Origin: Burkholderiaceae bacterium
GTDB taxonomy: Bacteria; Pseudomonadota; Gammaproteobacteria; Burkholderiales; Burkholderiaceae_D
DNA length: 64,000 nucleotides
Assembly: GCA_031291325.1 (NCBI GenBank)
Contig: JARLJG010000066.1
Location: forward strand, 28,208-92,207
Direction of reading: 5' to 3'
This document shows, one piece after another, positions 2-59,138 of this stretch (position 1 is the stretch's first letter; each line of letters opens with the position of its first letter). Below the pieces are notes generated by a model. The model had not been told where the DNA came from. It saw nothing but the letters and a program-made list of their open reading frames with translations, and searched no databases. The position numbers and the translations under genes were made by a program.

Positions 2-409
2 GCGCAGCCTATCACGTTGGTGGTCGACAAGGGGCGGGTGGTGGAGGCGCTCGATTCGACGCCGGAATTCGACCAGGTTCTTGCCATTATCCGGGCCGAC
101 GAAGGCGAGATATGGGTGCGTGAAATCGGCTTCGGCTTGAATCGGGCGTTTTCGGTCGACCGCACGGTTGCCGATATCGGCACCTACGAGCGCATGTGCG
201 GCATCCACCTTTCGCTCGGCGCCAAACATGGCTCGTATAACAAGCCGCTTATCAAACGCAAGGACGCCAAATATCACATCGACGTGTTCGCCGTCACCGA
301 TGCTGTATACCTGGATGACGAGTTGGTTTACCGGGACGGTGCTTGGCAGGTATTGCTAAAAAACAATGAAGCTTTCCTCAAAGCCGAATGCAATGATGGT
401 ATCGAATAG
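2..409 (+). CDS. C-terminal part of a protein resembling M29-type aminopeptidases (partial)
   Basis: The frame is open from the left window edge (codons from base 2), so the ORF-track TTG at 17 is probably internal and the gene starts outside the window. About 135 residues are visible. The stretch around GFGLNRAF, then HLSLGAKHG and YHIDVFAV, looks like the C-terminal domain of M29 thermophilic-metalloprotease/NicX-like proteins, where His and Glu residues bind metal. This is recollection of the family pattern, not a search. The gene is not obviously flagellar and ends 620 bp before flhD. The product name is uncertain; that this is a real coding 3' end is fairly sure. Confidence 0.45.
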   Translation, partial: AQPITLVVDKGRVVEALDSTPEFDQVLAIIRADEGEIWVREIGFGLNRAFSVDRTVADIGTYERMCGIHLSLGAKHGSYNKPLIKRKDAKYHIDVFAVTDAVYLDDELVYRDGAWQVLLKNNEAFLKAECNDGIE

Positions 410-541
410 ATTAATGCGTGATGAAAGTTAATTTATTATCATTTATTTGGTCTCTTAGCTTGAATTAGTTAAATAAATAACAATAAATAACAACAAAAAT
501 CAAAATAATTTGAAAATTTCAAAAATTTTTCAATAAATCCC

Positions 542-568
542 TAAAGTTTCCCCAAACCCGGTCGTTAG
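542..568 (+). promoter_or_regulatory. FliA (sigma-28) promoter P1 upstream of flhD
   Basis: TAAAGTTT (542-549), an 11-bp spacer and GTCGTTAG (561-568). The -35 is a perfect match to TAAAGTTT and the -10 matches GCCG(A/T)TAA at 6 of 8 positions. It points towards flhD, about 465 bp downstream. Confidence 0.65.
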
Positions 569-644
569 CAATCCTAGATACGGGAGATTGCAGTTTGGGT
601 TTAGAGAGCATCTAAAAATATTTAAAAATATTTTTAAAAATCCC

Positions 645-671
645 TAAAGTTTCCCTAATTCGTGCCGTAAC
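645..671 (+). promoter_or_regulatory. FliA (sigma-28) promoter P2 upstream of flhD
   Basis: TAAAGTTT (645-652), an 11-bp spacer and GCCGTAAC (664-671). The -10 is identical to that of the flgM promoter in this window. It lies about 103 bp downstream of P1, inside the second copy of the 18-bp direct repeat. Confidence 0.72.
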
Positions 672-1032
672 CAGATCAGACGCGTTGATATGCGATGGTT
701 TGGTTGTGAGTCTGCAACAATTTTTGAGGAAATTTAACTAAGTATTACGAAATAAATTCTCACTTTCAATATTGCTTCTAAGATAGTTTCTATCTGTAAT
801 CGATTTTGTCGATCGGCTGGAAACCTAAGCTGGAAGCCGCTTCCGAGCCATTTCGCATGATTCGGAGGAGTCGCTGCCTGACGTTTGTAAGACAAACGCC
901 TACAGGTGGCGAGGTTGCGTCTCCTACGCAAAATACCGAATACCGCCTCTTCCCCCTCGTTCAATCACCATCCAGAATGCAATCACTGGCCGAGCAAATT
1001 GCCACCAGCATTCACCGGATGGGAGTTTCACC

Positions 1033-1350
1033 ATGAACACGAACGACATGATTGCAGAGATCCGTGACGCGAACCTGGGTTATTTGATGCTTGCGCAACA
1101 AATGATACGCGCTGACAAAGCCACCGCAATTTTTCGCCTCGGGATCAGCAGCGACATCGCCGATTTGATCGAGGGGATGAATAATGCACAGATTCTGAAG
1201 CTGGCGGGCACCAACATGATGTTGGCGCGATTTCGTTTCGAGGACGGCACTATCCTCGGTATGCTGACCAATTACAACAAGGATCGGAATTTGGCGCATT
1301 CACATGCTGCCATTTTGATGGCGGGCCAGGCGGTCGAAGAAATCGCTTGA
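1033..1350 (+). CDS. flhD: Flagellar master regulator subunit FlhD
   Basis: FlhD is the partner subunit of the FlhD4C2 complex that activates class II flagellar promoters. The 105-residue product has the family's usual length and begins with a helical segment containing EIRDANLGYLMLAQ, typical of FlhD. It is followed 63 bp later by flhC in the same direction. The ATG at 1033 is preceded by a GATGGGAG Shine-Dalgarno-like stretch. Two sigma-28-type promoters lie upstream, which is unusual because flhDC normally heads the cascade and is transcribed by the housekeeping sigma factor. The identification rests on sequence pattern plus the flhC neighbour. Confidence 0.93.
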   Translation: MNTNDMIAEIRDANLGYLMLAQQMIRADKATAIFRLGISSDIADLIEGMNNAQILKLAGTNMMLARFRFEDGTILGMLTNYNKDRNLAHSHAAILMAGQAVEEIA

Positions 1351-1413: not shown

Positions 1414-1971
1414 ATGAGCAAGAAGAGTGTTGTTACCGAGGCGCAAGAAATCCAGTTGGCGATCGAGTTGATCAATCTCGGCGCACGTCTCCAATTACTG
1501 GAGTCGGAAACTTCCCTATCGCGCGAACGCCTGTTGAAATTGTATAAAGAGCTTAAAGGCGTCTCGCCGCCGAAGGGCATGCTGCCGTTTTCGACCGACT
1601 GGTTTATCACTTGGCAACCGAATATTCATTCGTCGCTGTTTATTGGAATCTATCGTTATCTGCAAGAGCATGCGAAGATTTCCGGCATTGAGGCGATCGT
1701 CAAGGCATACCGGCTATACCTGGAACAGGCCGAGTTGGACGCCAATGGCGAACCGGTATTGTCGCTGACCCGCGCCTGGACGCTGATCCGCTTTTTTGAC
1801 AGCAAAATGCTGACGACGACCGCTTGTTGCGATTGCGGCGGGCATTTCGTCGTGCACCGGCTGGATCTGCACGACCACTACACTTGCGGTTTATGCCATA
1901 TGCCGTCGCGCGCCGGCAAAACCAAAAAAGCCCGGGCCGACGCCATATCGGCCTCGCTGGCTGCGGCATGA
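1414..1971 (+). CDS. flhC: Flagellar master regulator subunit FlhC
   Basis: FlhC is the main DNA-binding subunit of FlhD4C2. The 185-residue protein starts with a helical region (EIQLAIELINLGARLQLL) and ends with a four-cysteine zinc-site arrangement, CCDCGG followed about 20 residues later by CGLC, as in known FlhC proteins. A basic tail follows. It follows flhD directly and is itself followed by hairpins that probably end the transcript. Together with FlhD it should activate the flgB, flgA, flhB, fliL, fliF and fliE operons here. Their binding sites could not be located confidently by eye. Confidence 0.94.
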   Translation: MSKKSVVTEAQEIQLAIELINLGARLQLLESETSLSRERLLKLYKELKGVSPPKGMLPFSTDWFITWQPNIHSSLFIGIYRYLQEHAKISGIEAIVKAYRLYLEQAELDANGEPVLSLTRAWTLIRFFDSKMLTTTACCDCGGHFVVHRLDLHDHYTCGLCHMPSRAGKTKKARADAISASLAAA

Positions 1972-22000: not shown

Positions 22001-22738
22001 ATGTATACCGCAGAAGGGAAGGCCGACAAGAACCAATTGCTGGTGGAGCATGCTCCGCTGGTCAAGCGCCTTGCCCATCAATTGAAGGCCAAATTGCCAC
22101 CCAGCGTCGAAGTGGACGATTTGATCCAGGCCGGGATGATCGGCCTGCTGGACGCGGTCAGCCGCTACGAAGAGACGCACGGCGCGCAATTTGAAACCTA
22201 CGCGGTGCAGCGCATACGCGGCGCCATGCTCGACGAGTTGCGCAGCAGCGATTGGCTGCCGCGCAGCATGCGGCAAAATATGCGCAAGATCGAAACGGCG
22301 ATGAGCGCGTTACAGCAAAAGCTGGGACGCCCGCCGAACGAAAGCGAAGTGGCCAAGCAACTCAAATTGTCGCTGGCCGACTACCAGGATTTGCTGACCG
22401 ACGGCGGCGGGCACCAACTGGTGTATTACGAAGATTTCCACGATGGCGACGGCAACGGCAATGAACACTTTCTCGACCGCTATTGCGCCGACGAGGGCGA
22501 AGATCCGCTGCAAACCCTGATGAATACCGGCTTTCGGGCCGCCTTGGTCGAAGCGATCAACACCTTGCCTGAGCGAGAAAAGATTTTGATGGGCCTCTAC
22601 TACGAACAGGAAATGAACTTGAAGGAGATCGGCGCCGTGATGGGGGTCTCCGAATCGCGCGTCTGCCAGTTGCATAGCCAGGCCATCGCGCGGCTGCGTT
22701 CAACCCTCAGGGAAAAAGCGTGGACTGGGGTAGCGTAG
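22001..22738 (+). CDS. fliA: Flagellar sigma factor FliA (sigma-28)
   Basis: FliA directs RNA polymerase to late flagellar and chemotaxis promoters. The 245-residue protein has region 2 (VDDLIQAGMIGLLDAVSRYE, FETYAVQRIRGAMLDELR), region 3 with the FliA-typical WLPRSMRQ, and region 4 helix-turn-helix (NLKEIGAVMGVSESRVCQLHSQAI). Six promoters with its consensus are seen in this window, two of them upstream of flhDC. Its inhibitor FlgM is encoded at 26585. The end overlaps motC by 19 bp. Confidence 0.97.
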   Translation: MYTAEGKADKNQLLVEHAPLVKRLAHQLKAKLPPSVEVDDLIQAGMIGLLDAVSRYEETHGAQFETYAVQRIRGAMLDELRSSDWLPRSMRQNMRKIETAMSALQQKLGRPPNESEVAKQLKLSLADYQDLLTDGGGHQLVYYEDFHDGDGNGNEHFLDRYCADEGEDPLQTLMNTGFRAALVEAINTLPEREKILMGLYYEQEMNLKEIGAVMGVSESRVCQLHSQAIARLRSTLREKAWTGVA

Positions 22739-26584: not shown

Positions 26585-26884
26585 TTATGCAGTCTGGGTT
26601 TGCAATAGATCTGTTACGTTATTGATAAGTCCATTGGCCACTTTTTCCGGGTTTACCTGGAACTGTCCGCCGGCAATGGCTGCCTTGATTTCGTCGACTT
26701 TATTGGCGTCGAATACGCTGCTCGTGGCGACCTGTCCCTCCAAGCCTTGCAACTGGGACGAACGATGCACGTTATCAGACGAAACACTAGTCGTGCTGGC
26801 TTTGCTTACGCCTTTACCCGCTCGCGTTTGCGTTGAAGTAACGCCCAAGCTTCCGGTTTTCTTGATTGAGTCATCAATTTTCAC
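26585..26884 (-). CDS. flgM: Anti-sigma-28 factor FlgM
   Basis: FlgM binds FliA until it is exported through the finished hook-basal body, making late gene expression depend on assembly. The 99-residue protein starts MKIDDSIKKTGS and has a Ser/Thr-rich, probably disordered first half. The C-terminal FliA-binding helices are around VDEIKAAIAGGQFQVNPEKVANGLI. A strong sigma-28 promoter precedes it, giving the normal feedback loop. If FliA also drives flhDC here, FlgM would additionally restrain the master operon. Confidence 0.95.
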   Translation of the reverse strand: MKIDDSIKKTGSLGVTSTQTRAGKGVSKASTTSVSSDNVHRSSQLQGLEGQVATSSVFDANKVDEIKAAIAGGQFQVNPEKVANGLINNVTDLLQTQTA

Positions 26885-26932: not shown

Positions 26933-26959
26933 GTTACGGCAGAATACCACTTAACTTTA
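26933..26959 (-). promoter_or_regulatory. FliA (sigma-28) promoter of flgM-flgN
   Basis: On the minus strand: TAAAGTTA, an 11-bp spacer and GCCGTAAC. Seven of eight bases fit the -35 consensus, and the -10 is identical to flhD promoter P2. The -10 ends about 49 bp before the flgM ATG. Confidence 0.82.
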
Positions 26960-26987: not shown

Positions 26988-27692
26988 TTAATAGGTTACT
27001 TCTAAAGTGCCGCCCATTTTCGCGATACCGCTGACAATCTGACCGCCCGCCGTCTTCGCTTGAACCAGTTGGCCATCCATTGCATTGGCCAAGGCACGCC
27101 CTTCGGCGGATACTCGAAATCCTTCGCCGGATGATATCAGGCGCACGATCTGCCCTTGCTGCACGGCTTGTTGGATACGCAGCGAGTCCAGGCGCAGCGG
27201 CACGCCTGCGGGCAACGATCGGGCGGCGCTATAGCCGATTGCATGCGACAAATCGGTTATGACGCCAGCCGGAAGCGTGGTCAGATCGCCGCGCACGACG
27301 GCCACATCGTGCTCGCCGATGACTTGGCCTTGCACCAGAGGGGCGATGGCGGCAACGTAGTCGCCGACCACGTGGATGGTAGCCGGAATATACACAGTCC
27401 AATGCGATGGTTCGCTGCAACGCACACCCACGGTAGTTTTACCCCAGGCCTTATTGCCGCTCGGCAAGAATGGCTCCAGGGTGGGGCAGCTTGGCAGATA
27501 TAAGTGGGCATCGACGTTGCCGACACTTATGCTGATCTCGCCTGGAATACCGCCCGATTGAATGAGTAAAAATTGCTCGACGGCAATTCGCATCGCGCCG
27601 GCATCCTGGCGCGGCGCAAGCTCGGTTGCGCGTGCAGCGCCGGCAAGCGCCAGCCAAACCAACAAGTGCACGGTAATTTTAAGCATTTTCAT
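26988..27692 (-). CDS. flgA: Flagellar P-ring chaperone FlgA
   Basis: FlgA is a periplasmic helper for FlgI P-ring assembly. The 234-residue protein begins with a Sec signal peptide (MKMLKITVHLLVWLALAGAARA). Its C-terminal SAF-like domain includes GVPLRLDSLRIQQAVQQGQIV, VSAEGRALANAMDGQ and a closing SGIAKMGGTLEV. It is divergent from flgB and upstream of flgM. It is probably transcribed from a FlhDC-dependent promoter in the 316-bp flgA-flgB gap. Confidence 0.94.
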   Translation of the reverse strand: MKMLKITVHLLVWLALAGAARATELAPRQDAGAMRIAVEQFLLIQSGGIPGEISISVGNVDAHLYLPSCPTLEPFLPSGNKAWGKTTVGVRCSEPSHWTVYIPATIHVVGDYVAAIAPLVQGQVIGEHDVAVVRGDLTTLPAGVITDLSHAIGYSAARSLPAGVPLRLDSLRIQQAVQQGQIVRLISSGEGFRVSAEGRALANAMDGQLVQAKTAGGQIVSGIAKMGGTLEVTY

Positions 27693-35364: not shown

Positions 35365-35391
35365 TCAAGTTTTTTGCGATATTGCCGTCAA
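35365..35391 (+). promoter_or_regulatory. FliA (sigma-28) promoter of flgK-flgL
   Basis: TCAAGTTT (35365-35372), an 11-bp spacer and GCCGTCAA (35384-35391). Each box has one mismatch to consensus. It lies 33 bp before the flgK ATG and shows that flgKL are late genes separate from flgB-J. Confidence 0.82.
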
Positions 35392-56947: not shown

Positions 56948-56974
56948 TTTACGGCGCGGACAAAGCAGACTTTA
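56948..56974 (-). promoter_or_regulatory. FliA (sigma-28) promoter of fliD-fliS-fliT
   Basis: On the minus strand: TAAAGTCT, an 11-bp spacer and GCCGTAAA. The -10 ends about 34 bp before the fliD start codon. Confidence 0.82.
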
Positions 56975-59111: not shown

Positions 59112-59138
59112 TTATCGGTCAAGACTGGAAAAAGTTTA
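59112..59138 (-). promoter_or_regulatory. FliA (sigma-28) promoter of fliC
   Basis: On the minus strand: TAAACTTT, an 11-bp spacer and ACCGATAA. Each box has one mismatch to TAAAGTTT/GCCGATAA. The leader to the fliC ATG is about 90 nt. Confidence 0.87.

Follow-up and report, generated by a model that had tools for sequence, protein, structure and literature searches.

Tandem predicted sigma-28 promoters with UP elements upstream of the flagellar master operon flhDC in a Burkholderiaceae bacterium and its relatives

The flagellar master operon flhDC of a Burkholderiaceae bacterium (assembly GCA_031291325.1, 4.72 Mb in 77 contigs) lies near one end of a 64,000-nt stretch of contig JARLJG010000066.1 (positions 28,208 to 92,207, forward strand), referred to here as the window. 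The window also encodes the flagellar sigma factor FliA (sigma-28) and FlgM, as well as flgK, fliD and fliC; the names of these three genes and of flgM were assigned by reading the N-terminal sequences. The nearest relatives of the FlhD protein were found in an uncultured Oxalobacteraceae metagenome-assembled genome (MAG, 99%) and a Burkholderiaceae MAG (96%), followed by members of Herminiimonas, Paucimonas, Oxalicibacterium, Noviherbaspirillum, Undibacterium, Massilia, Duganella and Janthinobacterium. A preliminary description, made from the letters of the window, placed two tandem sigma-28 promoters upstream of flhD. Both were located, on the same strand as the Pfam-confirmed flhD and flhC genes (Table 1), and by their sequence match sigma-28 promoters aimed at flhDC.

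Each site combines the -35 box TAAAGTTT with a -10 box similar to GCCGATAA across an 11-bp spacer. The proximal promoter and the flgM promoter have one and the same -10 box, GCCGTAAC, as had also been described. Only 11 sigma-28 sites with at most two mismatches were found genome-wide (both strands, 2 x 4.72 Mb), so that approximately 0.0007 sites would be expected by chance on one strand of the 623-bp intergenic region, where two are present. With up to three mismatches allowed, the window held 8 sites, compared with 0.76 expected from the shuffled window. No terminator-like site was found on the forward strand between positions 671 and 1033.

A weight matrix was built exclusively from flhD sites of other genera and scanned over the window. 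Its six best matches were the proximal flhDC site, fliD, flgM, flgK, the distal flhDC site and fliC, after which the score dropped; the class III genes of this genome carry the same motif as flhDC. In Escherichia coli, the same consensus recovered the sites that precede tar, fliC and fliD, plus one inside flhC. Among perfect sigma-28 matches across eight relative genomes, 9 of 14 preceded flhDC. Since a matrix trained on flhD sites finds the promoters of flgM, flgK, fliD and fliC, and since FliA and FlgM are encoded in the window, the sites upstream of flhDC are, as judged by sequence, FliA promoters. The flgM promoter itself sits between flgM and a flgA-like open reading frame (ORF, 26988-27692), so flgM could be transcribed by sigma-28 independently of the upstream gene.

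Table 1. Genes, promoter elements and conserved blocks in the window (positions are those of the window).
Feature	Position	Strand	Details
Incomplete ORF	2-409	+	upstream of the flhDC intergenic region; no Pfam match
Direct repeat, 58 bp, first copy	513-570	+	74% identical to second copy
Direct repeat, 58 bp, second copy	616-673	+
UP element, distal promoter, AAAAATTTTTC	521-531	+	alpha-CTD subsite; 10/11; -21 from -35
Distal sigma-28 -35 box, TAAAGTTT	542-549	+	preceded by CCC at 539-541
Distal sigma-28 -10 box, GTCGTTAG	561-568	+	N11 spacer from -35
UP element, proximal promoter, AAAAATATTTT	624-634	+	11/11; -21 from -35
Proximal sigma-28 -35 box, TAAAGTTT	645-652	+	preceded by CCC at 642-644
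Proximal sigma-28 -10 box, GCCGTAAC	664-671	+	N11 spacer; predicted start ~678
Leader dyad, TGTAAGACAAACGCCTACA	886-904	+	TGTARGA-N5-YCCTACR; conserved in much of the family
Leader block, AAATACCGA..GCCTcTT	931-951	+	conserved; family form AAATACnGA..GCCTATTC
Leader block, CAGAATGCAATCACTGGC	973-990	+	conserved; family form CAGAATGyATCTCACTGGC
flhD	1033-1350	+	Pfam PF05247 FlhD, 4.8e-43
flhC	1414-1971	+	Pfam PF05280 FlhC, 6.1e-91
fliA (sigma-28)	22037-22708	+	TIGR02479, 283 bits; contig coordinates 50244-50915
flgM	26585-26884	-	FlgM ORF 26884-26585
flgM sigma-28 promoter, TAAAGTTA-N11-GCCGTAAC	26933-26959	-
flgK sigma-28 promoter	35365-35391	+	by matrix rank
fliD sigma-28 promoter	56948-56974	-	by matrix rank
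fliC sigma-28 promoter	59112-59138	-	by matrix rank

The conservation of both promoters in related genomes, which the preliminary description had named as a check, was examined in 135 distinct sequences upstream of flhD, mostly from Oxalobacteraceae, collected through a search for relatives, a family search, a scan of named genomes and fetched regions. Sigma-28 sites were counted at up to two mismatches within 800 bp upstream of flhD. At least one site was present in 122 of the 135 sequences, at least two in 102 and three in 11, with 235 sites in the forward orientation and 5 in reverse. At one mismatch or fewer, 202 of 210 forward sites had a spacer of 11 bp and the other 8 a spacer of 12, with none at 6-10 or 13-16. 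Site density before flhD was 85-fold above that in the rest of the same named loci, and the promoter boxes are kept across relatives while the intervening spacers diverge. Every tested genome of Duganella, Herminiimonas, Janthinobacterium, Massilia, Oxalicibacterium, Pseudoduganella, Rugamonas and Paucimonas had two or three sites, Undibacterium had one or two, and Noviherbaspirillum from none to two. Most genomes of one genus (g24, probably Noviherbaspirillum) showed two flhD matches. Among 40 loci from elsewhere in the order, near-consensus sites before flhD were found in all four genomes of family f34 and in all four of f25 (one weak). Families f29 and f42 had them too, as did part of f24, and they were not found in most other families. 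As the sites occur in several families and are absent from others, the arrangement either predates Oxalobacteraceae or has more than one origin, with losses in places.

Both window promoters have a match to AAAWWTWTTTT exactly 21 bp upstream of the start of the -35 box, the consensus for UP (upstream) elements. Such elements are predicted to bind the C-terminal domain of the RNA polymerase alpha subunit (alpha-CTD). At the flhD sites of the family, the A+T content reached 97% at 16-20 bp before the -35 box, and the UP consensus was matched at 9/11 or better at exactly -21 in 154 of 197 sites, compared with a mean of 4 and a maximum of 9 when the same 35 bases were shuffled. A smaller second peak lay one helical turn further upstream, and in families f34, f25 and f24 the sites before flhDC had this UP element too. 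The four class III promoters of the window, flgM, flgK, fliD and fliC, have no good UP element (3, 3, 5 and 7 matches of 11, respectively). The sigma-D promoter of hag in Bacillus subtilis reportedly carries a UP element, and there too it boosts a promoter of the flagellar sigma factor; in that case, however, it serves flagellin, whereas here it marks flhDC and not fliC or the other class III genes. In addition, a CCC extension precedes the -35 box, with C at 194, 212 and 225 of the 235 sites at the three successive positions. It was rarer at other sigma-28 sites of relatives, although this comparison is rough, as the search pattern itself contained CCC. The UP elements, the CCC extension and three conserved blocks in the flhD leader go beyond the preliminary description.

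The 18-bp direct repeat previously reported to hold the promoters, AAATCCCTAAAGTTTCCC, is present and forms the core of the longer, imperfect 58-bp repeat. The accompanying suggestion that the promoter had been copied was not supported. Tandem sites occur in nearly every genus examined, and copies outside the boxes share a mean identity of 44% within a genome versus 41% between genomes. At 53% outside the boxes, the window pair would rank within the upper 12% of the pairs from different genomes, and the nearest match of the window's proximal copy is its proximal counterpart in the sister genome (76%). A recent promoter duplication was therefore rejected, as within-genome copies are hardly more alike than between-genome ones; the tandem arrangement is old, recent copying is not needed to explain it, and the 18-mer is mostly common promoter and UP sequence.

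The predicted leaders to flhD would be long, about 355 nt from the proximal and 458 nt from the distal start. Their dyad occurs once in the genome, and several genomes show joint variation in the two arms of its local hairpin; in Undibacterium (locus L109, for example), a T-run follows the hairpin formed by the dyad. RNAalifold detected no covarying structure over the whole leader in 102 leader sequences, and Rfam returned no family at gathering score. The dyad resembles sites of NarL/LuxR-type regulators (similar to RcsAB or GacA boxes), but with one extra base, and it is possibly a site for such a regulator or a local RNA hairpin. The two blocks downstream of it are candidate class I promoter or regulator sites. 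A reading of the first of these (AAATACCGA..GCCTATT) as a FlhDC box was discarded, the window having no convincing further copies. One genus of the family keeps flhDC but lacks a sigma-28 site before flhD (loci L048, L188, L190, L194, L203 and L204), which represents a natural loss; several of these loci retain the leader dyad.

We propose that the two tandem, UP-boosted FliA promoters transcribe flhDC and that FlhDC and FliA form a positive feedback gated by FlgM, a reading that we consider probable. A class I promoter, probably located in the conserved leader, would seed low-level flhDC expression; FlhDC would activate fliA and the hook-basal-body genes, FliA would be held by FlgM until the latter is exported by the hook-basal body, and the freed FliA would then read flhDC strongly from both promoters, latching the flagellar programme. 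The steps beyond the promoter anatomy are modelled on the known FlhDC-FliA-FlgM pathway (e.g., PMC5809477). A FliA-to-FlhDC loop restrained by FlgM had also been put forward in the preliminary description. Conserved sigma-28 promoters aimed at flhDC do imply a FliA-to-FlhDC link subject to FlgM, whereas we infer from the anatomy the sign and strength of the loop, together with transcript starts at the sites, raised FlhDC protein and FlgM gating.

Several observations weigh against this proposal. In six loci of genus g27, of the same family, flhDC is kept and a sigma-28 site before flhD is absent, and part of Noviherbaspirillum likewise keeps flhDC without a site, so the loop would be dispensable. 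Furthermore, both -10 boxes of the window, GTCGTTAG and GCCGTAAC, depart from the family consensus GCCGTTAA, a simple sigma-70 scan of the leader revealed no class I promoter, and the case for FliA-driven flhDC is built from sequence.

The main rival to feedback accepts that the sigma-28 promoters are real and holds that their transcripts do not raise FlhDC, either through poor translation via the long leader or because their main role is regulatory, as an RNA or through interference. The leader's length and three conserved blocks would suit such a role, as would the hairpin and T-run of Undibacterium, and the sigma-28 transcript of Salmonella fliA offers a precedent, going by the title of Tanabe 2011 as cited in PMC3946378. 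However, the family-wide maintenance of strong UP elements suggests selection for high output and the window has no terminator-like site before flhD; we regard this explanation as unlikely. Far less probable is that the motif TAAAGTT-N12-GCCGTTA with its CCC is the site of another sigma factor or regulator resembling sigma-28. The CCC is more pronounced before flhDC than at the relatives' other sigma-28 sites, which would fit a separate factor, but the flhD-trained matrix finds the window's own class III promoters, and the fixed 11-bp spacer and the position of the UP element follow promoter geometry. We give almost no credence to the boxes being accidents of a low-complexity, repeated intergenic region: the region is indeed AT-rich and carries the imperfect 58-bp repeat, yet the chance expectation is minute, and the way in which genera and families alike keep the orientation, spacing and sequence of the boxes already contradicts chance.

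Feedback of this kind has parallels in other bacteria. In B. subtilis, swrA is mainly sigma-D-dependent and fla/che has the sigma-D promoter PD3, resulting in positive feedback (PMC3874003). As proposed here for flhDC, a master activator is transcribed by the flagellar sigma factor; however, SwrA is an unrelated activator from another phylum, and the promoters in front of the FlhDC operon come in tandem sets of two or three and have UP elements. In enterohaemorrhagic E. coli, QseBC and FliA are reported to act on flhDC, going by the title of Clarke and Sperandio 2005 as cited in PMC9387321, which would resemble the situation here. No sigma-28 site within three mismatches was found upstream of flhD in E. 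coli K-12, whereas the sites described here lie close to the consensus, stand in tandem, are UP-boosted and recur from genus to genus. The sigma-28 autoregulation of fliAZ and the FliZ-YdiV loop of E. coli and Salmonella (PMC5809477) likewise involve positive feedback on the flagellar cascade by FliA or by its operon, but these loops target fliA itself or the FlhDC protein, without sigma-28 transcribing flhDC directly. Among the papers searched, which were those available without subscription, we found none that describes flhDC as dependent on FliA in Oxalobacteraceae or elsewhere in the Betaproteobacteria. Feedback of a flagellar sigma factor on a master regulator is already known in kind, and what is new is its family-wide, tandem and UP-boosted betaproteobacterial form.

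The textbook hierarchy, in which flhDC leads to fliA and then to the late genes, derives from enterics. In Oxalobacteraceae and several neighbouring families, where the tandem, UP-boosted sites are among the genome's best FliA matches, flhDC might be mainly a class III operon and flagellar commitment a bistable latch gated by the hook-basal body rather than the linear enteric cascade; this broader view is tentative, and we lean slightly away from it. If the proposed feedback is correct, the one-way hierarchy of E. coli appears closed into a self-reinforcing loop here and in most of the family, and the FlgM checkpoint would govern the master switch as well as the filament genes across a betaproteobacterial family. 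Bistability between motile and non-motile states in Massilia, Janthinobacterium, Undibacterium and their relatives would then be directly testable.
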